Source: a virus
Reading direction: 5' to 3' (one strand)
DNA length: 31,395 nucleotides
Virus record (IMG/VR): IMGVR_UViG_3300026097_001284
Location: 1 to 31,395 of that record
A program made the position numbers and the translations under genes. The notes below the pieces were generated by a model, which saw only the letters and a program-made list of their open reading frames with translations, did no database searches and had not been told where the DNA came from. Every line of letters starts with the position of its first letter. The stretch's first letter is position 1. Shown here piece after piece: positions 14,640-28,584 of this stretch.

Positions 14640-14875
14640 TGCATCACCCGTTTATTGGTGAGCTTAAAGATATGTCAGATTCAGAAGTCGATGACAAGAT
14701 AAAGGAACTGACATCTAAATATCTTTCTGCGCAAAGATTTAATAACCCAGAGGTCTTGACACAACTTCAAACTTTCCTTACAATATACAGAGAAGAATTA
14801 AAAACACGTTCTCTTACACGGAAAATGACCACTGATGACGACGACGATCTCGACCAACTTATCAACATCGACTAA
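14639..14875 (+). CDS. Small acidic-tailed protein, conserved in T4-like marine phages
   Basis: A 78-residue, mostly helical protein. It begins MHHPFIGELKDMSDSEVDDK and continues with a helical pair (KIKELTSKYLSAQR, then VLTQLQTFLTIYREELKTR). The C-terminus has a run of five aspartates (TTDDDDDLDQL). The ATG overlaps the preceding stop (TTAATG), with TAGGAG upstream. Proteins opening HPFIG-L are, as I recall, a recurrent small family next to structural genes of marine T4-like phages; function unknown. The 3' end overlaps the next gene by 41 bases. Confidence 0.75.
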   Translation: MHHPFIGELKDMSDSEVDDKIKELTSKYLSAQRFNNPEVLTQLQTFLTIYREELKTRSLTRKMTTDDDDDLDQLINID

Positions 14876-15338
14876 TACGCTTGACGATATATTAGAAGGC
14901 ATAAAATTACACGGTATTGATTATTTAGATCTATGTAAAACAGATGCCGATTTGGATCAGTACAAGAAAAGAATTAACGAAGAATTCTTAAATTATCCTA
15001 TACCGAAAGAAGTGATTGATCATAAAAACTGGTATGTCCCGACTGAGTATATGTCAATGGATATAGAAAAGCACATCCTTAATTTGTGTAAGACTGACGA
15101 AGAAGTACAAAGAGTAAAAAGTGAGATTCAACTTTATCAAAAGCATGATTTTTTAGATGTCTTACGTTGTATGAAATATATAGTAGATACACTACGTGAA
15201 AATAATGTTGTTTGGGGAGTTGGTCGTGGATCCAGTGTTGCCAGCTATGTGTTATACTTACTAGGGGTTCATAAAGTGGACAGCATTAAATATAATTTAC
15301 CGTTAGATGAATTTTTTAAAGGAGAAATTAATGGGTAA
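14835..15338 (+). CDS. DNA polymerase III alpha (DnaE)-like fragment protein
   Basis: A 167-residue protein. Residues ~104-162 (HDFLDVLRCMKYIVDTL, then WGVGRGSSVASYVLYLLGV, then KYNLPLDEFF) correspond to the segment of bacterial C-family polymerases that reads GPGRGSxAGSLVAYxLxIT...LLFERFL. The match stops exactly where DnaE continues into its catalytic MPDFDxDF aspartates, which are absent, so the protein cannot polymerise on its own. Residues 30-50 and 80-100 are an internal repeat (LDLCKTDADLDQY and LNLCKTDEEVQRV). The start at 14835 has no good ribosome site; translational coupling to the overlapping upstream gene is likely. Possible roles are host polymerase decoy or clamp/replisome adaptor, both speculative. 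Confidence 0.7.
   Translation: MTTTISTNLSTSTNTLDDILEGIKLHGIDYLDLCKTDADLDQYKKRINEEFLNYPIPKEVIDHKNWYVPTEYMSMDIEKHILNLCKTDEEVQRVKSEIQLYQKHDFLDVLRCMKYIVDTLRENNVVWGVGRGSSVASYVLYLLGVHKVDSIKYNLPLDEFFKGEING
15318..15324 (+). promoter_or_regulatory. Ribosome binding site AAAGGAG deciding the start at 15331
   Basis: AAAGGAG lies six bases before ATG 15331. An in-frame ATG at 15307 has no such site and lies inside the previous gene, so 15331 is preferred. Confidence 0.8.
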
Positions 15339-15556: not shown

Positions 15557-15958
15557 ATGTCAGTTTACACAATCCAAGGCGAAATTAAAGCCAAGGGAGA
15601 CGATATCTTAGTGGCCGATATGTACTTCGGCGAGATGAAAACCGCTTCTGGTATTATTATTGCAGAAGATAATGGAAAAACCAGAGGTGTTAAACCCAGG
15701 TGGGGCAAAGTTTATTCTGTAGGTCCTGCCCAAACAATGGTTAAAAAAGACGATTGGATCCTTGTAGAGCACGGAAGATGGACACGCAAGATAAAAGTAG
15801 ATAGCGGAGATGGAGAGTTTGAAATACAAAAAGTCGATCCTCAAGGCATTTTAGGTATTTGGAATGGTGAAGGAGAACCGAATACAAGTTATATCGGACA
15901 AGAATACAACGATGGACAAGGTTTCGACGTTGATCCTGGTTTGTTTATGGACAATTAA
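15557..15958 (+). CDS. GroES-like co-chaperonin (functional analogue of T4 gp31)
   Basis: A 133-residue protein with the order of a GroES subunit: first strand (IKAKGDDILVA), a mobile loop with the GroEL-binding hydrophobic triplet (TASGIII, residues 29-35), TRG, then GKVYSVGP and KKDDWILVEHGRWTRKIKV, and a last strand VDPQGILGIW that matches the GroES end. A ~25-residue acidic Gly/Asp tail is extra. T4 gp31 replaces host GroES to fold the major capsid protein; this protein probably caps host GroEL in the same way. A good AAAGGAG precedes the ATG, and the stop overlaps the next start (TAATG). Confidence 0.8.
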   Translation: MSVYTIQGEIKAKGDDILVADMYFGEMKTASGIIIAEDNGKTRGVKPRWGKVYSVGPAQTMVKKDDWILVEHGRWTRKIKVDSGDGEFEIQKVDPQGILGIWNGEGEPNTSYIGQEYNDGQGFDVDPGLFMDN

Positions 15959-16590: not shown

Positions 16591-17501
16591 AAGATCTTTG
16601 GGTAGAAAAATACAGACCAAAAACAACAGCTGAGTATGTTTTTAAAGATGATGCTCAACGTAAACAAATTGAGACATGGGTTTCAGATCAAAGTATTCCG
16701 CACTTATTGTTCAGCGGGTCTGCCGGTATCGGTAAAACAACCATGGCAAAAGTATTAATCAACGAGCTAGGTATTGAAGAGTTTGATGTTTTAGAAATAA
16801 ATGCAAGTCGCACAAACTCTGTAGAAGATGTTCGCGATAAAATTACTAATTTTGTACAAATGATTCCATTTGGTCCGTTTAAAGTAGTATTGTTAGACGA
16901 GGCTGATTACTTATCTCCAAACGCACAGGCAGCATTGCGTGGTGTAATGGAGGAATATCATAGCACTTCTCGATTCATCCTTACTTGTAATTACCCAAAC
17001 AGAATTATTCCTGCTATTCACAGTCGGTGTCAAGGTTTTCATATTGAAAGAATTGATCAAACAGAGTTTACAGCCAGGATTGCAACTATTCTTGTAGAAG
17101 AAGAAATTGCATTTGATCTAGATACACTAGATAGCTATGTAAAAGTTGCATACCCGGATTTGCGTAAAGCAATTAATATGGTACAACAGAACGTACATAG
17201 CAATGAATTGCATGCACCTAATAAAGGCGACGAAGGCGAAGCTGATTGGAAGTTCGACATGGTCGATTTATTCAAAGCAGGTAAAATACAAGAAGCTCGT
17301 AAACTGCTATGTGGTAAGATCAGGGCAGAAGAAATGGAAGAAGTGTATCGCTGGTTGTATGATAATCTTGAAATTTTTGGCGAGGATGAAAATCAAGACA
17401 GAGCTGTGTTGATTATCAAACAGGGATTGGTTGACCATACGCTGGTCGCAGATCCAGAAATCAATCTTGCGGCAACACTTATTAAACTTGGGAGATTATA
17501 A
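16587..17501 (+). CDS. 44: Sliding-clamp loader large subunit (T4 gp44-like)
   Basis: A 304-residue RFC-family AAA+ ATPase (T4 gp44 is of similar size). It opens [10 protein letters not shown], the clamp-loader signature. Walker A is GSAGIGKTT (44-52), Walker B is [10 protein letters not shown] with D104-E-A-D107, and the arginine-finger motif is SRC (146-148, IHSRCQGF). A helical collar domain follows to the end. With gp62 and ATP it would load the gp45 clamp for T4-type replication and late transcription. No gp62 gene follows here: the next gene, joined by TAATG, is a ferredoxin, so the small subunit must lie elsewhere. Confidence 0.95.
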
Positions 17502-17827
17502 TGGCTTACGTAGTTGATGATAAATGTATTATGTGTAAACACACTACCTGCGTTACCGTCTGCCCGGTGGACTGCTTTTACGAAGGTGAAAACATGCTGG
17601 TAATCAATCCGGAGGAATGCATTGATTGTGGAGTATGCGAACCTGAATGTCCAGAAGATGCTATCTATGCAACTAACTATGTAGAAGATATGTGGTATCA
17701 GCACAATCTATACTTTTCCAAAGAATGGCCTAATATCGCAGACGAAAAAGATCCTATGCCGGAACATGAAAAGTATTCAGCCATAGAAAATAAAATACAC
17801 CTGTTTAGTAAAAATCCAGGCCAATAA
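17501..17827 (+). CDS. fdxA: Seven-iron ferredoxin (FdxA / Azotobacter FdI type)
   Basis: A 108-residue soluble electron carrier. All nine cysteines of the Azotobacter ferredoxin I family are in register: C9, C12, C17, C21, C25, C40, C43, C46 and C50. By family knowledge C9, C17 and C50 would bind a [3Fe-4S] cluster, and C21, C40, C43 and C46 a [4Fe-4S] cluster. The C-terminal extension also matches ([13 protein letters not shown], residues ~74-86). The ATG overlaps the clamp-loader stop, with GGGAG upstream, so it is the last gene of the replication operon before a strong terminator. It may feed electrons to a reductase or radical enzyme, or alter host metabolism; the partner is unknown. Confidence 0.92.
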
Positions 17828-19262: not shown

Positions 19263-19995
19263 GCAAGTAAACGAAGGTCTACGAAAGTCGGATCTAAAAG
19301 ATTTAATATATCCAAAATTACAAATTGACACATTTAAAAGTAAAATGGGTGAAGATTCTGATGTATGTGTTGTTACTATGCAGGCCAAAGATAGATCGCC
19401 CGCCAAAGACTTAATGGAGTTTATTGAAAAATCATATGATTTTGTACTTGATGCTGATATCAGTGCTGGCGAAAATTCAAGAGGTGAATATAGTATATTC
19501 GTTGAAATCGAAAGAACAACAAATCTTGCAGAACAAATTTGCGATATGATGTACGGCATAAAGCAACTTACGGAAATAGATAATTTCGATTTCGTATACT
19601 ACAAGGACAAAACACAAAGGCCTGTATCAAGAGAAACACTAGAAAATCTAGTACCACAAAATTCGATGCAGTATTACTCTATGCTTAATGAAACCAAAAT
19701 TAAGGAAGCAGAATCATTTTTCTCCAAAACCTTCATGGATCACCTAGAAATTGACGGGAACCTGCTAAGTATTGTAAGACCTTTTGGGAATAAGATAAAC
19801 CTAGAAGTAATAGACGAAGGCGAAAAAGAAAAATTGATATCTAATATCAACGAGCCTATCACTGAGAATAGTGAAAGCACAGCAGAGGTTTTTTGGTTGA
19901 CCAAGGTCTTAGGTGATTACGATATTACTAAATATGGTGATAAATTCCTATTAATAAATGGGAACAACGCAAAACTTGTTAAAAGGGGGATATAA
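19246..19995 (+). CDS. Conserved phage protein, function unknown, paired with the upstream gene
   Basis: A 249-residue soluble protein without cysteine clusters, membrane spans or P-loop. Features are an N-terminal helix (VNEGLRKSDLKDLIYPKLQI), a mixed alpha/beta segment (YDFVLDADISAGENSRGEY, SIFVEIERTT) and a C-terminal region with FWLTKVLGDYDITKYGDKFLL. It starts within the upstream gene, 17 bases before that gene's stop, behind a GAGGA site, and its own stop overlaps the endolysin start (TAATG). This tight coupling between an unknown pair and the lysis cassette suggests common late expression. A virion or assembly function is plausible but not shown. Confidence 0.7.
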   Translation: MILAYKQVNEGLRKSDLKDLIYPKLQIDTFKSKMGEDSDVCVVTMQAKDRSPAKDLMEFIEKSYDFVLDADISAGENSRGEYSIFVEIERTTNLAEQICDMMYGIKQLTEIDNFDFVYYKDKTQRPVSRETLENLVPQNSMQYYSMLNETKIKEAESFFSKTFMDHLEIDGNLLSIVRPFGNKINLEVIDEGEKEKLISNINEPITENSESTAEVFWLTKVLGDYDITKYGDKFLLINGNNAKLVKRGI

Positions 19996-20459
19996 TGCGT
20001 TTATCAGAAAATTTTACAATGGCTGAATTTACAAAAAGCCAAACAGCAGAGCGTAGAGGTATAGATAACACACCACAAGGCGAGCATCTAGATGCAGCGG
20101 TGGCATTATTCGAAAACGTGGTACAGAAAGTTCGTGATCACTTTGGTCCTACTGTGATCAATTCAGGATATCGTTCACCAGAGCTAAACGAAGCCGTAGG
20201 TGGTAGTTCACGTTCACAGCACTGCAAAGGCGAAGCGGCTGATATCGAAGTGCCAGGAGTTCCTAATGCAGAACTTGCTGAGTGGATTCGTGATAACCTA
20301 GAATTCGATCAGTTAATCCTGGAATTTTACACTCCTGGGATCCCAGATTCGGGTTGGGTCCATGTATCTTATCTAGCAGACGGCGATAATCGCGGCGAAT
20401 GCCTAACAGCGACTCGTATCGACGGCAAGACAGAATACTCTGTAGGAATTAATGCTTAA
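19995..20459 (+). CDS. Endolysin: M15-family zinc peptidase
   Basis: A 154-residue peptidoglycan peptidase of the M15 (D-Ala-D-Ala/L-Ala-D-Glu type) family. The zinc-site motif is SGYRSPELN (57-65), SQHCKGEAADI (74-84) with H76 and D83, and WVHVSY (121-126) with H123. Glu110 in LILEF is a candidate catalytic acid. There is no signal peptide, so it would need a holin for release. It lies directly upstream of the Rz/Rz1 spanin pair and is translationally coupled to both neighbours (TAATG at its start, 8-base overlap at its end). Homologues are the usual lysins or virion-associated lysins of marine myoviruses. Confidence 0.9.
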   Translation: MRLSENFTMAEFTKSQTAERRGIDNTPQGEHLDAAVALFENVVQKVRDHFGPTVINSGYRSPELNEAVGGSSRSQHCKGEAADIEVPGVPNAELAEWIRDNLEFDQLILEFYTPGIPDSGWVHVSYLADGDNRGECLTATRIDGKTEYSVGINA

Positions 20460-20958
20460 AGTCTATGCTGTTTTAATCATAGTAGGAGTACTTGGCACTT
20501 TTGCATACGGTGCCAAGTATTACTATGACAGCACACAGGCAACAATCGCAACCCTACGTGAAAACAATGCCAAACTAGAAACAGCCGTCGAAATAAGCGA
20601 AGCAAGTATCGAAATGCTTCAGGAAGATATGGCTAAATTCCAAGAATTAAATCAACAATTACAAGCAGACCTACAGGCTGCAGAAGCCTACGGTGACGAG
20701 CTTCAAAGTAAATTGAACAGACTAGACCTTGTTCAAGATGCATTACGAGATGCAGAACAATTAGAAGGAAAGATGAATGGCGCTACAGCAAAACTTTGGC
20801 GCGGCATCATTGAAGATACTGGCGGTGATCCTAACCGTCCTCTACCTAACTGGTTGCAGCCTAGTGAGCAACCCAGAACCGGAGATCAAAGTGGTAACCA
20901 AGGTGGAGAAGACAACAGTACCGACAGTGAGCCGACCCAAGCCAGTCCAGCTCAATGA
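20452..20958 (+). CDS. Rz: Inner-membrane spanin (Rz-like)
   Basis: A 168-residue protein with one N-terminal membrane segment (residues 3-20, VYAVLIIVGVLGTFAYGA). A long periplasmic coiled coil follows at ~30-110 (TIATLRENNAKLETAVEI and on). The C-terminus is Pro/Gly/Ser/Glu-rich and disordered. This is the plan of an i-spanin, which bridges the envelope and fuses inner and outer membranes after peptidoglycan loss. It overlaps the endolysin by 8 bases and contains the start of the Rz1-like gene in another frame. The disordered tail lies exactly where Rz1 is also encoded, as expected for overprinting. Confidence 0.85.
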   Translation: MLKVYAVLIIVGVLGTFAYGAKYYYDSTQATIATLRENNAKLETAVEISEASIEMLQEDMAKFQELNQQLQADLQAAEAYGDELQSKLNRLDLVQDALRDAEQLEGKMNGATAKLWRGIIEDTGGDPNRPLPNWLQPSEQPRTGDQSGNQGGEDNSTDSEPTQASPAQ

Positions 20959-21199
20959 TGTAAGGGTATATGTAGTTAATGAACGCATTCTTGATGACTT
21001 CTTGTCAGAGTTCAAAGATCGGCACGGCGAAGTAGCATTTGTTGCTCTATCAATGAAAGACTACGAAAACTTGGCACTCAATATAGCGGATCTTCGTCGT
21101 TATATAAATCAACAAACACAGATCATTGTTTATTATGAAGATGCTGTGGATCCTAATGCAGATGACACTGTGGTCTCGGAAACTCCCCTAGAACAATAA
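20777..21199 (+). CDS. Rz1: Outer-membrane lipoprotein spanin (Rz1-like), starting inside Rz
   Basis: A 140-residue lipoprotein precursor. The signal peptide is residues 1-26 (ILAVILTVLYLTG) with lipobox LTGC, and the lipidated Cys is residue 27. The next residue is Ser, not Asp, so sorting to the outer membrane is expected. A Pro/Val-rich linker follows (TTVPTVSRPKPVQLNDV), then a mixed segment with DYENLALNIADLRRYINQQT. AAGGA lies six to ten bases before the ATG. It overlaps Rz by 182 bases in a different frame and extends well past it, unlike lambda Rz1, which is fully embedded. It is longer than classical Rz1 proteins (60-90 residues). Confidence 0.85.
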   Translation: MALQQNFGAASLKILAVILTVLYLTGCSLVSNPEPEIKVVTKVEKTTVPTVSRPKPVQLNDVRVYVVNERILDDFLSEFKDRHGEVAFVALSMKDYENLALNIADLRRYINQQTQIIVYYEDAVDPNADDTVVSETPLEQ

Positions 21200-21202
21200 A
21201 TA
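21195..21202 (+). promoter_or_regulatory. Putative late promoter (AATAAATA) over the Rz1 stop codon
   Basis: AATAAATA contains the Rz1 TAA stop and is followed by AACATAGTAGGAGGG and the ATG at 21223. It may give the two membrane-protein genes transcription independent of the spanins. Confidence 0.45.
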
Positions 21203-21222
21203 AACATAGTAGGAGGGCTACT

Positions 21223-21504
21223 ATGTTAGAAATGATAGACAGAATGTTCAGCGATACCCTTTGGATTTGGACCGCCATTGGTGGTTCTATAATCGGTGCC
21301 GTTGCATTGGCCTATCTTAAGGACACTAGAGCGGGTATTTGGTTCTACAGTAAGGTAGATCAATATTTAGATTTTCTAGTAGAAAGATACGGATGGACAT
21401 GGTTGGAACAGCCAACCGATGCTTGGCGTAAGAAATATCCTTATGTCACGAAAAAAATAGACGAGCTCGAAGCTCGTATTGCCGAATTAGAGGAGCGTAA
21501 ATAA
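21223..21504 (+). CDS. Small membrane protein with coiled-coil tail, lysis region
   Basis: A 93-residue protein started by a strong TAGGAGGG site. Residues ~13-32 are a membrane segment (LWIWTAIGGSIIGAVALAYL). The soluble part has GIWFYSKVDQYLDFLVERYG and WTWLEQPTDAWRKKYPYVTK, then a charged heptad helix (KIDELEARIAELEER). The N-terminus is short, so the tail probably faces the cytoplasm. The pattern is familiar from other marine T4-like phages, unnamed. It sits between Rz1 and the EF-hand membrane protein (TAATG overlap), so a holin, antiholin or membrane scaffold role is a fair guess but unproven. Confidence 0.7.
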   Translation: MLEMIDRMFSDTLWIWTAIGGSIIGAVALAYLKDTRAGIWFYSKVDQYLDFLVERYGWTWLEQPTDAWRKKYPYVTKKIDELEARIAELEERK

Positions 21505-21866
21505 TGGCAGAAGACAAAAAAACAATCGACGCGGCAGCTGTCGAAGGAATGGATGCTAATGGCGATGGGCACATTAGCCAAGAAGAAATGGAGATGCACT
21601 TGGAGTTTAAGCGCAAAGAACTAGAAGATCAAGATGCACAGCGTGACGCGATTCGCAAGATGGCATGGTTCGCACTGTTCGGACTGTTGTTGTATCCTAT
21701 TGGTATTTTCCTAACATCCGCATTTGGACTAGACACTGCGGCACAGCTAATTGCTGACATTGCTCCAACATACTTTGCTTCAATTGCCGTGTTGGTATCT
21801 GCATTCTTTGGTGCTGATGCTATTGCACAAAAGGGCAAAGGCGGCGGCTCCGCACCTAAGAAATAA
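21504..21866 (+). CDS. EF-hand membrane protein, candidate holin or lysis regulator
   Basis: A 120-residue protein. Residues 17-28 form a textbook EF-hand calcium loop (DANGDGHISQEE: D17, N19, D21, H23, S25, E28). A charged helix follows (EMHLEFKRKELEDQDAQRD). Two hydrophobic segments lie at ~52-72 (MAWFALFGLLLYPIGIFL) and ~81-105 (IADIAPTYFASIAVLVSAFF). The C-terminus is Lys/Gly-rich (KGKGGGSAPKK). Two spans with a basic tail, next to endolysin and spanins, fit a class II holin; the N-terminal EF-hand would then be a calcium-sensing domain. Proteins of this plan exist, as I recall, in other marine T4-like phages. The calcium-gating idea is inference. Confidence 0.75.
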   Translation: MAEDKKTIDAAAVEGMDANGDGHISQEEMEMHLEFKRKELEDQDAQRDAIRKMAWFALFGLLLYPIGIFLTSAFGLDTAAQLIADIAPTYFASIAVLVSAFFGADAIAQKGKGGGSAPKK

Positions 21867-21925
21867 TTTTCTTATTGACCTAAGGTGCTAAGTAGTTTAT
21901 ATGGACTATTACAGCGCCTTAGGTG
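21852..21925 (+). promoter_or_regulatory. Competing inverted repeats around the dnaJ start
   Basis: CACCTAAG (21853-21860) is the exact complement of CTTAGGTG (21918-21925), and ACCTAAGG (21878-21885) of CCTTAGGT (21917-21924). The two pairings exclude each other; the second closes a 31-base loop holding the dnaJ ATG at 21901. TAAGAA (21857-21862) can also pair with TTCTTA (21869-21874), which could be a weak terminator. Confidence 0.35.
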
Positions 21926-22722
21926 TTCCTAGAAACGCTTCCCAAAAAGAAATAAAACAAGCCTACAGAAAATTGGCTAATAAACATCATCCTGATAAAG
22001 GCGGTGATGCAAATCATTTCCAAAAAATTTCCGAAGCATACGACACACTGTCCGATCCGCATAAGAAACAGCTATACGATCATGGTCACAACCCTAATCA
22101 ACAACACTATAGAAGGGGTCCTTTTGAATTTCATTTTGGCGATCCCGGCATGGACGATATGTTTCAAAATTTTGGTTTTGGTTTTAACAATAGGCAGGCA
22201 AGGAACAAAAGCTTTAATGTTGCAGTGCAAGTATCTTTAGAAGATGTTCTTAAGGGCAAAAACATTGCGGCAGAAGTTAGTGATGGTTCTGGGAAGACTA
22301 GATTAGTTAACATTCAAATACCCCCTGGTATAGCCTCCGGACAGCAAATTAGATATGAAGGTATGGGAGAATCGTCTATTCCTAACATTCCCGCTGGTGA
22401 TCTAATTGTGGTTATAGATGTTGTAAGGCATAGAAGATTTGAAAGAAAAGGCAATGATATTATAACAAATGCAAAGGTAAATGTATGGGATGCATTGTTA
22501 GGAGGCAAGGCTAAAATTGAAACTTTAGACGGTAGAAGTTTAAATATTAATGTACCAAAGGGATCACAGCCAAACACTTTACTGAGCTGTAAAGGCGAAG
22601 GATTACCAGATATAAACTCAAAAAAACGGGGCAATTTACTGATAAAATTAGTAATTGAAATACCTAATAATTTATCAGCAAAACAAGAGCAGCTTTTAAA
22701 ACAGATAAAAAATGAAGTATAG
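21901..22722 (+). CDS. dnaJ: DnaJ-family co-chaperone, zinc-finger-less (DnaJ/CbpA type)
   Basis: A 273-residue J-protein. The J domain covers residues 1-65 with H30-P-D32 (NKHHPDKGG) and the opening YYSALGVPRNAS. A short G/F-rich linker is at ~73-100 (FEFHFGDPGMDDMFQNFGFG). Two C-terminal substrate-binding beta domains follow (DVLKGKNIAAEV; PPGIASGQQIRYEGMG; NVPKGSQPNTLL). The four CXXCXGXG zinc repeats of DnaJ are absent, so it is a type II (CbpA-like) protein. It would recruit host DnaK. There is no strong ribosome site upstream. Its stop falls within a decayed copy of the def start, so dnaJ and def were probably once directly joined. Confidence 0.92.
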   Translation: MDYYSALGVPRNASQKEIKQAYRKLANKHHPDKGGDANHFQKISEAYDTLSDPHKKQLYDHGHNPNQQHYRRGPFEFHFGDPGMDDMFQNFGFGFNNRQARNKSFNVAVQVSLEDVLKGKNIAAEVSDGSGKTRLVNIQIPPGIASGQQIRYEGMGESSIPNIPAGDLIVVIDVVRHRRFERKGNDIITNAKVNVWDALLGGKAKIETLDGRSLNINVPKGSQPNTLLSCKGEGLPDINSKKRGNLLIKLVIEIPNNLSAKQEQLLKQIKNEV

Positions 22723-22756
22723 TTTAGGATTACATGCGACACTGTGAACAGAAAGT
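22712..22756 (+). pseudogene. Decayed duplicate of the first 15 codons of def
   Basis: Read from ATG 22712 the frame gives M-K-Y-S-L-G-L-H-A-T-L-stop-T-E-S. The intact deformylase at 24816 begins M-K-Y-K-L-G-Q-H-E-S-L-R-T-E-S. By eye, 35 of 45 bases match without gaps, and codon 12 has become TGA. The dnaJ stop overlaps codons 3-4. The same DNA in another frame encodes the first residues of the radical SAM protein. It looks like the scar of an insertion between dnaJ and def. Confidence 0.7.
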
Positions 22757-23600
22757 ATATAAGATTGAATTCCTGGAATGGATGATCACTACTTCCTGTA
22801 ACCTTGCCTGTCCTGGATGCGATCGCTTTATTGAATTTTCTCACAACTGGACAGAGCCGTATGATGCTATTGTAGAAAGAATGGAGCAGTGGAGCAAAAT
22901 TGTACAGCCAAAAAATCTCACTCTTATAGGCGGCGAGCCGCTTATTCATCCCTACATCTATGATATCATAAGAAAATCTAGACATTATTTTCCCAAAAGC
23001 ACGATTGAAATAGCAACAAACGGGTTGCTATTGGGGAAGAAAACCCAACTTAAAAAAGTTATGCTAGAGGTAGGCAACTGTAAAATAAATTTATCCTTAC
23101 ACAATAACGATATAAGAGTGCAGGAAAAAATATTTGAACTTGTAAATAAACACTTAATTGACAAAAAATGGAAAAAAATAGATTCTAACAATTGGCAGAA
23201 AAATTCGATATCCGTTCATATAACTGAAGTAGAGGATTGGTTTGACTATAGAAGGAACATAGATGGCAAATTAAAACCGTGGCAAGATGGCGATGCTTCT
23301 GCAAGTTATGGAGCCTGCGGAGTAGGAATTTTTCCTATTATTTATAACGGTATAATGTATAAATGTCCACCTATATCTATGCTACGAACTCATCTTAAAA
23401 AATATAACAGATTAGATGATGTCGACTGGAAGCCTTACTTGCAGTATTCTGGTATTAGTCCGCAGTCTAGCCGAAAACAAATTAAAAGATTTATAAAAAA
23501 TATAGGGCAACCTCATTGGATATGTGGGATGTGTCCTGCTAATCCTAGGATGGTTCCTCAAAAAGAAGCCTTTATCAAACACTCGATTGATAATCTCTAA
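22734..23600 (+). CDS. Radical SAM enzyme with SPASM/twitch-like auxiliary cluster
   Basis: A 288-residue radical SAM protein. The cluster motif is CNLACPGC (C22, C26, C29), and GGEP at 66-69 is the SAM-binding motif. A barrel follows with IEIATNGLLL and KINLSLHNND. Four C-terminal cysteines (C195, C211, and C264-x2-C267 in WICGMCPANP) suggest a SPASM- or twitch-type auxiliary [4Fe-4S] site, common in peptide- and sugar-modifying enzymes. The substrate is unknown. Its first codons lie in the decayed def copy, and no good ribosome site precedes the ATG. It converges on a glycosyltransferase-like gene with a 26-base overlap, and both sit in an apparent insertion. Confidence 0.85.
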   Translation: MRHCEQKVYKIEFLEWMITTSCNLACPGCDRFIEFSHNWTEPYDAIVERMEQWSKIVQPKNLTLIGGEPLIHPYIYDIIRKSRHYFPKSTIEIATNGLLLGKKTQLKKVMLEVGNCKINLSLHNNDIRVQEKIFELVNKHLIDKKWKKIDSNNWQKNSISVHITEVEDWFDYRRNIDGKLKPWQDGDASASYGACGVGIFPIIYNGIMYKCPPISMLRTHLKKYNRLDDVDWKPYLQYSGISPQSSRKQIKRFIKNIGQPHWICGMCPANPRMVPQKEAFIKHSIDNL

Positions 23601-24708
23601 TAATGTTTGCAAAAAAATTGTAAGTTTCCTTTTCAATTTGTTTAGCATTATCTTTTAGTTTTTCTAGATTATACTCCAGTGTTCTATGATTTTTAAATCT
23701 CCAGGCAATTTGTTCTTTTCTGTTTAACGACTCTAGCGTTTCAACAAGTTTTTTTAAACTTTTAAAAAGTCGCATGTATCGGTCGACCGGATCACTTATA
23801 TTGTCAAAACTATAATCGAACCATTCGGTATATAATTTATACCCTAATTTTTGCAAGGTTCTATTACTGTCTTTTTGCCCGTATATAACAAAAGGCTGGT
23901 GAGCTAGGATAGGATAAAAACTTTTTTCACTTAGTTCTCTAGAAGTGCCTCGACAATCCTCAACTAAAGTTTCATTTACTACTTGAAACAGGGTTTGCTG
24001 GTGTAGTCTCAAATTAAAATTCTCATCACCATCTATAATTTTAGGCAATGAGTCAATCCATTTCTGCTGACTTTCATATGTTCGATCCTTAAATGGTATA
24101 AGGTTATCTTCTACCCTATAAATTTTTTCATTATGACTTATTAATGATCTGTGAGAAATTTCACTTGTGTCAAGATAGTACGCCATACTTGATCTATAAT
24201 GTCTAGCTAAATTGTTTAAACTGAGAAGATATTTGTTTTGAAATAGTTTATCGACTTGTGTGCGGCTTTTATGTATAGTATTGTTAAGCAACCGCTTCTG
24301 TATTTCATTTTGAGCAAAACATCTGCAGAAACAGTGTATTAGGGGTTTATTTTTTTGCTTGCTGTAATATTCAAGATTTTGCATCTCATTTAGATTCATC
24401 GTAATATAGATAACTTTTGAATGTGGAATATTTTTAGACTCTATTGCACTGTATATGTCATCGTATAATGGGCCGTCACCGTATATTGTACTAAAACCTT
24501 CACGAGACGAGTCTAACACAAGAAACTTACTTCCATTTTTGATTTCATTTTTAAGCTTCTTGGGCAAAGTTAAAAAGTGAGTGAATGTTTCAAGATTTTC
24601 AGGACAAAACTCTGCTATAACAAAGTATTGTTTCAAATGATTAGGTATAAATCTCTGAATATTAGCTTTACCATTTTTAACTATTTTATAAACAGGTTGG
24701 TTTTTCAT
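23575..24708 (-). CDS. Glycosyltransferase-like / conserved phage protein of the SEKxFxPI type
   Basis: A 377-residue protein. Residues ~255-330 (counted from ATG 24708) contain FQVVNETLVED, LSEKSFYPILAHQPFVIYG, LQKLGYKLYTEWFDYSFD and DPVDRYMRLF. This block (SEK-F-PI, pF-i-g, LxxLGY/F-x-x-F, D-SYD) is widespread in marine phage and bacterial proteins and resembles the acceptor-side region of fucosyl/glycosyltransferase-like families; no biochemical role is established to my knowledge. The N-terminal half is unfamiliar, with a CFCRCF segment. GTG 24723 is an alternative start, but it lies upstream of the TAAATA core, so ATG 24708 is preferred. With the radical SAM gene it may form a surface- or peptide-modification cargo. 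Confidence 0.65.
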   Translation of the reverse strand: MKNQPVYKIVKNGKANIQRFIPNHLKQYFVIAEFCPENLETFTHFLTLPKKLKNEIKNGSKFLVLDSSREGFSTIYGDGPLYDDIYSAIESKNIPHSKVIYITMNLNEMQNLEYYSKQKNKPLIHCFCRCFAQNEIQKRLLNNTIHKSRTQVDKLFQNKYLLSLNNLARHYRSSMAYYLDTSEISHRSLISHNEKIYRVEDNLIPFKDRTYESQQKWIDSLPKIIDGDENFNLRLHQQTLFQVVNETLVEDCRGTSRELSEKSFYPILAHQPFVIYGQKDSNRTLQKLGYKLYTEWFDYSFDNISDPVDRYMRLFKSLKKLVETLESLNRKEQIAWRFKNHRTLEYNLEKLKDNAKQIEKETYNFFANIIRDYQSSV

Positions 24709-24713
24709 CAAAG

Positions 24714-24721
24714 TATTTAAC
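24714..24721 (-). promoter_or_regulatory. Late-type box GTTAAATA abutting the start of the 23575-24708 gene
   Basis: On the - strand the order is GTTAAATA, CTTTG, ATG. The predicted transcription start is the A of the start codon. The first twelve bases (GTTAAATACTTT) equal those of the phoH promoter. Confidence 0.45.
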
Positions 24722-24775
24722 ACTGGACAAAGTTATGAGGCAAAAAGCAAAATTACAACATCAGACCGCAGAAGC

Positions 24776-24815: not shown

Positions 24816-25307
24816 ATGAAGTATAAGTTAGGACAGCACGAATCACTGAGAACAGAAAGTACCGAATGGGTGTTTTCTGTAGACGGTGATAGTGAAAAAT
24901 TACAGCACGACATGATAAATTGCATGTTAGAGAATAGAGGCATAGGCCTTGCTGCTAACCAAATAGATTTAACCAAACGTGTTTTTGTTATGGGGGCAAA
25001 GGATATTATAGGGTTTCCACAGCCGTTTGCACTTTATAATCCACAAATTATAGATCAAAGTTCAAATCTAGTGTTAGACACAGAAGGATGTTTAAGTTTT
25101 CCAGGACTCCAACTTACAATTAAAAGACCCGAATGGGTAGTAGTAGAATACAATGACAGTCAAGGAAATACTAAAACCTACAAAGCCGATGGTTATGCAA
25201 GTAAATGTGTGCAACATGAAATAGATCACTTAAATGGCATATGTTTTGTTGACATTGTGAGTCCTTTGAAGTTAAAATTAGCTAATAACAAATTAAGGAA
25301 AAAATAA
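24816..25307 (+). CDS. def: Peptide deformylase
   Basis: A 163-residue metalloenzyme removing the N-formyl group from nascent proteins. All three motifs are intact: GIGLAANQ (42-49), EGCLSFPG (90-97) and HEIDH (134-138). The metal ligands are C92, H134 and H138, and the catalytic acid is E135. Length is normal for phage or bacterial PDF and includes a C-terminal basic helix. The gene ends one base before clpA. Just upstream a short frame ends T-I-Q-N-E-V-stop, recalling the dnaJ end (Q-I-K-N-E-V-stop), as if def once followed dnaJ directly. Phage deformylases are known from marine T4-like viruses. Confidence 0.95.
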   Translation: MKYKLGQHESLRTESTEWVFSVDGDSEKLQHDMINCMLENRGIGLAANQIDLTKRVFVMGAKDIIGFPQPFALYNPQIIDQSSNLVLDTEGCLSFPGLQLTIKRPEWVVVEYNDSQGNTKTYKADGYASKCVQHEIDHLNGICFVDIVSPLKLKLANNKLRKK

Positions 25308-27584
25308 ATGATTGAGCCAAGTCCAACACTACAGAAAATTTTCGACGAAGCATTAGAATCAGCAAGAGCGAGAAACCACGAGTATATCACATTAGAACAT
25401 ATGGTTTTTGCAATGGTAAATGATGCAGAAGTTTACGATTACCTCAAGGAATATGGTTCATCAATTGATTCATTAGCAAAAAATGTGTTAGACTATTTAG
25501 ATAATAGTCTTGAAGAAATCAAAAATTTCAATGTAGAAAAACCAAGAAAAACCAACTCAGTAGAGAGAGTGTTGAATCGCTGTTTTACTCAGGCACTTTT
25601 TAGCGGTAGAAATCGAATTGAAGTCGAAGATCTTATTCTAAGCATTCTAAACGAAAAAAATAGCATGGCTTCATACTTCCTTACACAGAACGGCATTAAA
25701 AAAGATGAGTTTGCAGAACATTTTTCTGACAATCTTGTGGAAGAAGATTTGGATGTCTCAAATGTAGAAAGTTCACGTGGCGTGAAAGGAACTAACAAGG
25801 TAATTAAAGAATTTTGTATTAATTTAAGTGAAAAAGCCAAGAATGGTAAAGTGGATCCTGTAATAGGTCGCGATAAAGTAATCGAAGACGTTCAACTCAT
25901 ATTAGCTCGCCGTAATAAAGCAAATGCCTTGCTTGTTGGAGAACCGGGTGTAGGCAAAACTGCTATTGCAGAAGGTCTTGCAAAAGCAATCCATGATGGC
26001 GAGGTGCCGACCTTTATAAAAGATCACGAAGTATATTCATTAGATATAGGAAGCTTGATTGCTGGTAGTAAGTATCGAGGCGACTTCGAAGAAAGAACAA
26101 AGGCGGTTTTCAAAGCACTTGAAGAAAAAGAAAATGTAATTCTTTTTATCGATGAAGCACACATGATGAACGGCGCAGGTTCTTCTGGTCAAAGCTCGAA
26201 TGATCTTGCGAACCTATTAAAACCTATTCTCACAAAAGGCATTGTAAAATTAATGGCTTCTACTACCTGGGAGGAATACAGGAAGTACTTTGAAGCTGAC
26301 AGAGCCTTAATGCGCAGATTTCAGCGTGTGACTGTAGATGAACCGACACCAGAATTAACCGTTGAAATTATGAAAGGTTTGCGCAAGTATTACGAAGATC
26401 ATCATAATGTAGATATTACAGATGCGGCCATTGAACAAGCAGTGAAGATGTCTGTAAAATACATGCACGACAAAAAATTACCAGACAAAGCCATTGATGT
26501 AATTGACTGTGCAAGTGCTAGATATAAACTTAAACGCACTGAGGAGTCTGATGATGTAAGAGAAATTGTTGACATTGAACAGATTAATTTCGAAATGAGT
26601 CGTATGGTTAATATTCCTAAAGAAACGGTAAGTCAGTCTGAAAGTTCTCGATTGACTCATCTTGAAGAAAATATGAAGACAAAGGTATACGGGCAGGATA
26701 CTGCGGTAGACACTGTGTTAGATAAAATTTTTGTTGCGCAGAGTGGCTTCAAAAGTCCCGAGAAGCCGGTAGGAAGTTTTCTATTTTTAGGACCTACAGG
26801 GTGTGGTAAAACTGAGACTGCGAAGCAATTAGCAAGCCAGCTGGATATGAATCTTATTCGTTTTGACATGAGCGAATATCAAGAAAAACATTCGGTATCA
26901 AAATTAATCGGTTCTCCTCCGGGGTATGTAGGGTATGAGGAAAATGCTGGGCAACTAATTACAGAACTGCAAGAAAAACCAAACAGTGTATTATTGCTTG
27001 ACGAAATAGAGAAAGCGCACCCAGATGTATCTAATATCCTATTGCAATTCATGGATAATGGCTTTGTGACCGGATCAAACGGAAAACAGGCAGATGGACG
27101 AAATACAATTTTAATTATGACCAGTAATTTAGGAGCCGCCGATAACGAGAAAAATTCTATAGGATTCGGTGATCTAGAACAGGATGGTAAGGATGACGAA
27201 GCAGTGAATTCATATTTCGCTCCGGAATTTCGTAATCGTCTAGATGCAATTGTAAAATTCAACAAACTTGCAAAGGAAACAATGAAGGATATTGTAAGTA
27301 AGTTTGTGAAAGAATTAAACAATCAGGTTAAAGACAAGTATATAGAGATTAGTATTACGGATGATGCATTAGAATACCTTGCAGATAAAGGGTTTGACCC
27401 GAAAATGGGTGCTCGTCCCCTGCAGCGTGTAATAGACAAGGAAATAAAATCGCCCCTAAGTCGAGAAGTTTTATTTGGTAAATTAGTTAACGGAGGTAGA
27501 GTCCAGGTCATTAAAAGCAAAGATGGTTTAGGATTTAAGTACCTTAAAAAATTAAAAAAACAACGCGAAACCTCAAATGTATAA
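25308..27584 (+). CDS. clpA: ClpA-type AAA+ unfoldase (Clp protease ATP-binding subunit)
   Basis: A 758-residue protein, the same length as E. coli ClpA. The N-domain covers residues 1-~145 (EYITLEHMVFAMV). D1 has Walker A GEPGVGKT (211-218) and FIDEAHMMNGAG; D2 has Walker A GPTGCGKT (495-502) and LLLDEIEKAHPDV. The substrate-gripping pore motif SLIAGSKYRGDFEER is present. No ClpB-type middle coiled coil is present. I618-G619-F620 sits where E. coli ClpA has its IGL ClpP-docking tripeptide, so it should engage host ClpP. No clpP is in the window. The gene starts immediately after the def stop. It may redirect host proteolysis, for example by degrading host regulators; the targets are unknown. 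Confidence 0.95.
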   Translation: MIEPSPTLQKIFDEALESARARNHEYITLEHMVFAMVNDAEVYDYLKEYGSSIDSLAKNVLDYLDNSLEEIKNFNVEKPRKTNSVERVLNRCFTQALFSGRNRIEVEDLILSILNEKNSMASYFLTQNGIKKDEFAEHFSDNLVEEDLDVSNVESSRGVKGTNKVIKEFCINLSEKAKNGKVDPVIGRDKVIEDVQLILARRNKANALLVGEPGVGKTAIAEGLAKAIHDGEVPTFIKDHEVYSLDIGSLIAGSKYRGDFEERTKAVFKALEEKENVILFIDEAHMMNGAGSSGQSSNDLANLLKPILTKGIVKLMASTTWEEYRKYFEADRALMRRFQRVTVDEPTPELTVEIMKGLRKYYEDHHNVDITDAAIEQAVKMSVKYMHDKKLPDKAIDVIDCASARYKLKRTEESDDVREIVDIEQINFEMSRMVNIPKETVSQSESSRLTHLEENMKTKVYGQDTAVDTVLDKIFVAQSGFKSPEKPVGSFLFLGPTGCGKTETAKQLASQLDMNLIRFDMSEYQEKHSVSKLIGSPPGYVGYEENAGQLITELQEKPNSVLLLDEIEKAHPDVSNILLQFMDNGFVTGSNGKQADGRNTILIMTSNLGAADNEKNSIGFGDLEQDGKDDEAVNSYFAPEFRNRLDAIVKFNKLAKETMKDIVSKFVKELNNQVKDKYIEISITDDALEYLADKGFDPKMGARPLQRVIDKEIKSPLSREVLFGKLVNGGRVQVIKSKDGLGFKYLKKLKKQRETSNV

Positions 27585-28236
27585 GTGTGAAGTAAAACCA
27601 AAACAGACGCAGAGAAAGTTTTATAACAAGTGGATTTATAAAATAAGTTTATTTCTTCCTGGTTGTCATGTTTTTAGATATAACAGTTTAGAATCAATTA
27701 TGCATAATCCTGATATTGCTAAACCAAGTTGGAGATATACTATAAACCCAGATACTGGATCTATAAAGCATCTAGCAGATATTTTGCATACAACAAATCA
27801 CAAGTGGGCAAAAAGGATTGAAACAGATTGTATAGATATATATACCAACGATAAAGATCTTTATGACACAATATACAACGAATTAACGACCTCAGTAAGA
27901 CATAGATTTGAACCGGATATTGATAATCTAGACTTGTTGGACAAAAAATACACCACAGTTGTAAAAAAACTACCGTTCAATCGTTATAATTATAGAGTTT
28001 ATCTAAACCCTTTAAAGTGTTCGTTCGATGAAAGAGAAAGCTTTATACGGTGGGTTGACAGTCAAAACGGAAAAATCAAAATGACAAACGCGGTAAAGCA
28101 CTGGTTTTCGCATGCAATTGTAAATTGGGATCGTAGGTACATACTTATAGAAGATAAAGATGTTTTATTAATGGCAAAATTAAAATGTGCAAAAGCATTG
28201 GGCAAAGTTTATACATTCGAAGTTGCTGATAAATAG
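27577..28236 (+). CDS. Conserved phage protein, function unknown
   Basis: A 219-residue basic protein overlapping the clpA end by 8 bases. It opens with FYNKWIYKISLFLPGCHVFR, then has a helical middle (HKWAKRIETDCIDIYTNDKD) and a segment KKLPFNRYNYRVYLNPLKC followed by FIRWVDSQNGKIKMT. The KLPxxRYxYxVYL-P pattern is, in my recollection, a recurring unknown family in marine T4-like phages. No membrane span, signal or known catalytic motif is seen. The start lacks a ribosome site, consistent with coupling to clpA. A link to the Clp system cannot be claimed from adjacency alone. Confidence 0.7.
   Translation: MYKCEVKPKQTQRKFYNKWIYKISLFLPGCHVFRYNSLESIMHNPDIAKPSWRYTINPDTGSIKHLADILHTTNHKWAKRIETDCIDIYTNDKDLYDTIYNELTTSVRHRFEPDIDNLDLLDKKYTTVVKKLPFNRYNYRVYLNPLKCSFDERESFIRWVDSQNGKIKMTNAVKHWFSHAIVNWDRRYILIEDKDVLLMAKLKCAKALGKVYTFEVADK
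28228..28235 (+). promoter_or_regulatory. Late-type box GATAAATA abutting the start at 28240
   Basis: GATAAATA, GTTT, ATG: the box overlaps the stop codon of the preceding gene and ends four bases before the next ATG, the same geometry as at the - strand start 1224. There is no ribosome site. Confidence 0.45.
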
Positions 28237-28239
28237 TTT

Positions 28240-28584
28240 ATGCTTCAAGAAACTCTAAAACTTGCTGAAAATATCAACGCAGAAACAGAAAATTTTGCAT
28301 ACTCAGAAAAAAATAAGGGTGCCGGATATGCAGGTCGGTTAGATACCACAACAACTGTGCAGTACATACTTGATAACTTTTCAGGAGCAATAAAAATCCA
28401 AGGTAGTTTAGAATTATATCCAGGCGACGATGATTGGGTAGACATTGAACCAACTCTAATAGACGACGTTAGTTCCGTGTTAAATGATGATTACACCATT
28501 TCATTCACAGGCAATTTCCTTTGGTTAAGGGCAGCCTATCAAATTACTAATGGCACAATTAGTTCAATTCGTTATAATTTATAA
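28240..28584 (+). CDS. Small beta-rich phage protein, possibly structural
   Basis: A 114-residue protein. A short N-terminal helix (ETLKLAENINAETENF) is followed by a beta domain: VQYILDNFSGAIKIQGSLEL, YPGDDDWVDI, then ISFTGNFLWLRAAYQITNGT. The F-x-GNFxWLRA-x-y-x-ITxGTI pattern occurs in small virion-associated proteins of marine phages, as I recall, and looks like a jelly-roll or Ig-like decoration domain. No signal, membrane or catalytic motif is visible. A GATAAATA box ends four bases before the ATG, so expression is probably late and the mRNA may be leaderless. Confidence 0.65.
   Translation: MLQETLKLAENINAETENFAYSEKNKGAGYAGRLDTTTTVQYILDNFSGAIKIQGSLELYPGDDDWVDIEPTLIDDVSSVLNDDYTISFTGNFLWLRAAYQITNGTISSIRYNL

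Follow-up and report, generated by a model that had tools for sequence, protein, structure and literature searches.

The clpA gene and its product

The stretch of DNA analysed here (the window) is a virus record of 31,395 bases, in which an open reading frame on the forward strand (25308-27584, with ATG at 25308 and the stop codon at 27582-27584) encodes ClpA, a two-ring AAA+ unfoldase of 758 residues assigned to phrog_4871. The original prediction of a full-length protein equal in length to E. coli ClpA was borne out: the clpA gene of E. coli also measures 2277 bp, with a product of 758 residues. By far the best model for the protein is the NCBIfam ClpA model TIGR02639, with 904 bits over residues 6-734. 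Since this score is below the equivalog cut-off of 993 bits, which was set for cellular ClpA, the protein is filed as a phage ClpA homologue and not as a cellular ClpA ortholog. Furthermore, the phrog_4871 profile gives 844 bits over residues 6-745 (profile positions 10-756 of 764), and a PDB search returned E. coli ClpA with an E value of 4e-192. A chance match to ClpA models at such scores is out of the question, and 25308-27584 is a real phage clpA and is intact. The pairwise dN between this gene and its nearest relative is 0.18 with dS saturated, so that no dN/dS ratio is given; these values are consistent with purifying selection.

The protein comprises an N-domain (residues 1-142, 25308-25733; Pfam Clp_N, E 1.6e-8) and two AAA+ rings, in both of which, as had been claimed, the Walker A and B motifs are intact. 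All are encoded on the forward strand: GEPGVGKT (residues 211-218, 25938-25961) and ILFIDEAH (278-285, 26139-26162) in D1, and GPTGCGKT (495-502, 26790-26813) and LLLDEIEKAH (562-571, 26991-27020) in D2. The pore loops KYRG and GYVG, the arginine fingers and sensor 2 are kept as well. E. coli ClpA, which works in the ClpAP-ClpS protease, has the same N-D1-D2 layout with Walker, pore, arginine-finger and docking-loop motifs; the window protein differs from it in its score under the equivalog cut-off, its place in a separate phage clade and its docking tripeptide, IGF in place of IGL. Among the relatives the N-domain, which would be the docking site for adaptors and substrates, is the fastest-changing part of ClpA, with a mean pairwise identity of 53% versus 77% for D1 and D2.

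The IGF tripeptide (residues 618-620; 27159-27167, forward strand) is the presumed tip of the ClpP-docking loop, and its alignment with IGL at residues 617-619 of E. coli ClpA agrees with the position first proposed for it. In the window and its 80 closest relatives among the matches listed, [IV]GF is present in all 81 sequences, G and F being invariant and the first place either I or V, while several loop positions beside the tripeptide vary. Such conservation amid varying neighbours favours ClpP binding and argues against a pure chaperone.

The conserved gene block around clpA

The clpA gene lies among late and structural genes and forms part of a tight conserved block, dnaJ-def-clpA-X-Y, which is all on one strand in the relatives; in the window it is on the forward strand. 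The gene for a dnaJ-like co-chaperone (21901-22722) stands just upstream of def in 72 of 80 related loci. The stop codon of def, encoding peptide deformylase (24816-25307), abuts the start of clpA, and the two genes directly adjoin each other in 66 related loci, with a median gap of 0. Downstream, the phage-only ORF X (27577-28236) is conserved in 71 related loci and overlaps the 3' end of clpA by 8 bases in the window, the median across the 71 loci being 28 bases, where the overlaps are upper bounds because the starts of the relatives were set at the first possible start codon. ORF Y (28240-28584), conserved in 70 related loci, is weakly similar (E 3e-7) to a structural protein of PA5oct that was detected by mass spectrometry. 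Moreover, a GroES-like gene (15557-15958) is found about 9 kb upstream of clpA.

The structure prediction for ORF X is confident (pLDDT 94), and in the model the protein seems to consist of two ferredoxin-like domains. Its membership of a known family was rejected after several searches: there was no match in PHROGs or PADLOC, Pfam gave weak scattered matches only, and tblastn against phage records returned one insignificant match. With the model as query, Foldseek found nothing under E 0.001 in the PDB and only uncharacterised phage proteins in BFVD, and the VIA-align scores (Z of at most 5.7) may come from the common ferredoxin-like arrangement alone.

Parts of this organisation recur in named phages. 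PA5oct has in common with the window the order GroES-like, clamp loader, PhoH, structural, DnaJ and ClpA, and Sinorhizobium phage Phosso has the order dnaJ-def-clpA. Unlike the window, neither PA5oct nor Atu_ph07 has a def gene annotated between dnaJ and clpA, and an X-like gene was not found beside clpA in PA5oct. The dnaJ-def-clpA-X block is not described in the searched portions of the accounts of Atu_ph07 (PMC6102473) and of jumbo phages (PMC7824862). The new detail is the place of clpA within a conserved dnaJ-def-clpA-X-Y block, jumbo-phage ClpA itself being already known.

A two-gene insert (22734-24723) separates dnaJ from def in the window; it is absent from the 80 related loci and is also a difference from the phrog_4871 phages. 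One of its genes encodes a radical SAM protein with weak matches to prokaryotic viperin models (E 6e-12), and the other, a convergent ORF of 382 residues, had no match in the searches run.

Phage ClpA and its partners in related genomes

Relatives of the window ClpA occur in at least 598 IMG/VR contigs, and 98 phage records have a match spanning at least 80% of the protein, some of these records resembling bacterial or prophage sequence. The annotated carriers in phrog_4871 include PA5oct, RaK2, 121Q, GAP32, SCTP-2, Atu_ph07 and Phosso, whose full-length homologues are 38-45% identical to the window ClpA and have its motifs and clade in common. A quick maximum-likelihood tree was built from 71 proteins. 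In it, the 25 ClpAs of phage origin group together in a single clade (SH-aLRT 98), and all 46 bacterial ClpA and ClpC sequences fall outside this clade, the long branches of PA5oct and SCTP-2 making its exact inner order unsure. Among bacterial sequences, identity reaches about 45% at full length (51% in one partial match), versus 79% for a phage relative. Judged from these sequences, the clpA of the window is an old phage gene and not a recent copy of a host gene. A recent capture from the host, with no special role in the phage, would fit the length shared with E. coli ClpA; the tree contradicts it, and with the identities and the conserved synteny also against it, this origin is very improbable. 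The jumbo-phage ClpAs instead make up a large family that has been described before, and the window clpA is an unexceptional member of it. For Atu_ph07, a published account reports ClpA, ClpP and ClpS together (PMC6102473), and a jumbo-phage survey suggests that ClpA could be a translocase or virion-assembly factor, with roles also proposed for ClpA and ClpP or ClpS (PMC7824862). A literature search found no published experiment on any phage ClpA and no paper testing what phage-encoded Clp machines degrade.

No ClpP match was obtained in the 31,395-base record. The claim that no clpP is nearby therefore holds for the window, but it carries little weight, since this 31 kb record covers part of a virus and ends 3.8 kb to the right of clpA. 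In relatives with both genes, the distance between clpA and clpP calculated from their coordinates is about 13 kb in PA5oct, reaches about 240 kb at the other extreme and is mostly more than 25 kb, so that clpP would usually fall outside a stretch as short as the window.

A ClpP-family protein is encoded in all 11 complete or near-complete phage isolate genomes searched; ten of these are known ClpA carriers, and the strict limit applied gave no match to phrog_4871 in the remaining one, XacN1. Every ClpA-bearing isolate of this set (10/10) thus encodes a ClpP-family protein, and ClpS is above cut-off in nine of the ten, the tenth, XaC1, being marginal. Among the 20 IMG/VR records closest to the window in the matches listed, five have canonical ClpP, one more has only a divergent ClpP, and five have ClpS. 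One close relative, G017, carries both clpS and a clpP with an intact triad; its lysis proteins and those of the window reach 98.7% identity, and its ClpP is 57% identical to that of E. coli. Relatives of this ClpP are encoded by at least 592 viral contigs, and window-type ClpA is present in 9 of the 16 ClpP-bearing records longer than 100 kb; none of the five records with a length of at least 245 kb lacks it. The Ser-His-Asp triad is kept in 16 of 16 aligned phage ClpP-family proteins. The divergent ClpPs of RaK2-like phages (33-40% identity to E. coli ClpP) could have another role. ClpP was not detected in three long ClpA-bearing contigs, G019 (330 kb), G011 (270 kb) and G012 (217 kb), which may be incomplete; their ClpAs retain [IV]GF, and the use of host ClpP by some members of the family is thus possible.

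The ClpPs of G017 (L195) and PA5oct (L182) also have in common an insertion in their handle region, following the histidine of the active site; it is absent in E. coli ClpP.

Role of the phage unfoldase and its host

The best explanation, to which we give a probability of roughly 60%, is that the window belongs to a jumbo phage related to PA5oct and that its clpA supplies the unfoldase for a ClpAP(S) protease encoded by this phage, the ClpP most likely being the phage's own. That this phage itself carries clpP is an inference, as are the docking, substrates and timing of its ClpA. The ClpA hexamer would grip its substrates through the N-domain, alone or with a ClpS-type adaptor of phage or host, and would draw them through the pores of D1 and D2, the IGF loop holding the ClpP barrel into which the substrate would be fed. 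ClpP would most likely be encoded elsewhere in the phage genome, and host ClpP may serve too. Expressed with the late genes, the ClpAP(S) protease would be active in late infection and, together with the adjacent DnaJ and deformylase and the nearby GroES-like protein, would probably take part in late protein quality control during virion assembly, its targets being virion proteins that have misfolded or chosen proteins of the host.

The original prediction took the missing clpP as a sign that host ClpP is used: a phage devoid of ClpP would dock its ClpA on the host enzyme and redirect host proteolysis. Docking of the window ClpA on host ClpP is possible, and the absence of clpP from the window, together with the long relatives that keep IGF with no ClpP detected, fits such a scheme. 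However, a ClpP-family protein is encoded in each of the complete or near-complete isolate genomes with window-type ClpA that were searched, canonical ClpP is found in five of the 20 closest records listed, the long contigs may be incomplete, and tens of kb usually separate clpP from clpA. Hijacking of the host protease is thus possible but unlikely, and is not the likeliest reading; the main result for the window is a correction, in that a clpP missing from a fragment is not evidence for it. ClpP might also be dispensable altogether, with ClpA acting as a chaperone or remodeller in virion assembly, as the survey suggests for jumbo-phage ClpA (PMC7824862). The late and structural genes around clpA, its DnaJ and GroES-like companions and the structural genes on both sides of clpA in PA5oct, RaK2 and 121Q speak for such a role; a pure chaperone would not need the docking tripeptide that is kept in 81 of 81 sequences, and we regard this role as rather unlikely.

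Clp machines of their own are common among giant phages, and the conserved block with deformylase and protein X offers a concrete place to seek a phage adaptor. It is conceivable, albeit distinctly doubtful, that dnaJ-def-clpA-X constitutes a phage-specific degradation pathway, in which X would be an adaptor or cofactor of ClpA and the deformylase would prepare N-termini, ClpAP being steered to chosen substrates.

As regards the host, the presence of ClpA and not ClpC had been thought to indicate a proteobacterium. This identification was rejected as weak: phage ClpA is an old lineage outside bacterial ClpA, so the type of gene says little about the host, and Bacteroidota hosts are predicted for an aquatic phage lineage with a core gene annotated as ClpA (PMC12619734). 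Two Rz-like spanin genes (20452-20958 and 20777-21199), the second starting inside the first in another frame, speak for a host that has an outer membrane.

These genes belong to a lysis cassette (19995-21866) consisting of an M15 peptidase gene, the Rz-like spanin gene, the second spanin gene that starts inside it and then two small genes. Parts of the cassette are 90-99% identical to those of two related loci, L002 and L065, whose ClpAs are only 62-67% identical to that of the window, a contrast which is a sign of mosaic exchange. Finally, a short ORF (14835-15338) matches only part of a DNA polymerase III alpha domain (PF07733) and is conserved in the relatives and in PA5oct, and a small 4Fe-4S ferredoxin with a DUF3470 tail (17501-17827) is conserved in 18 related loci.
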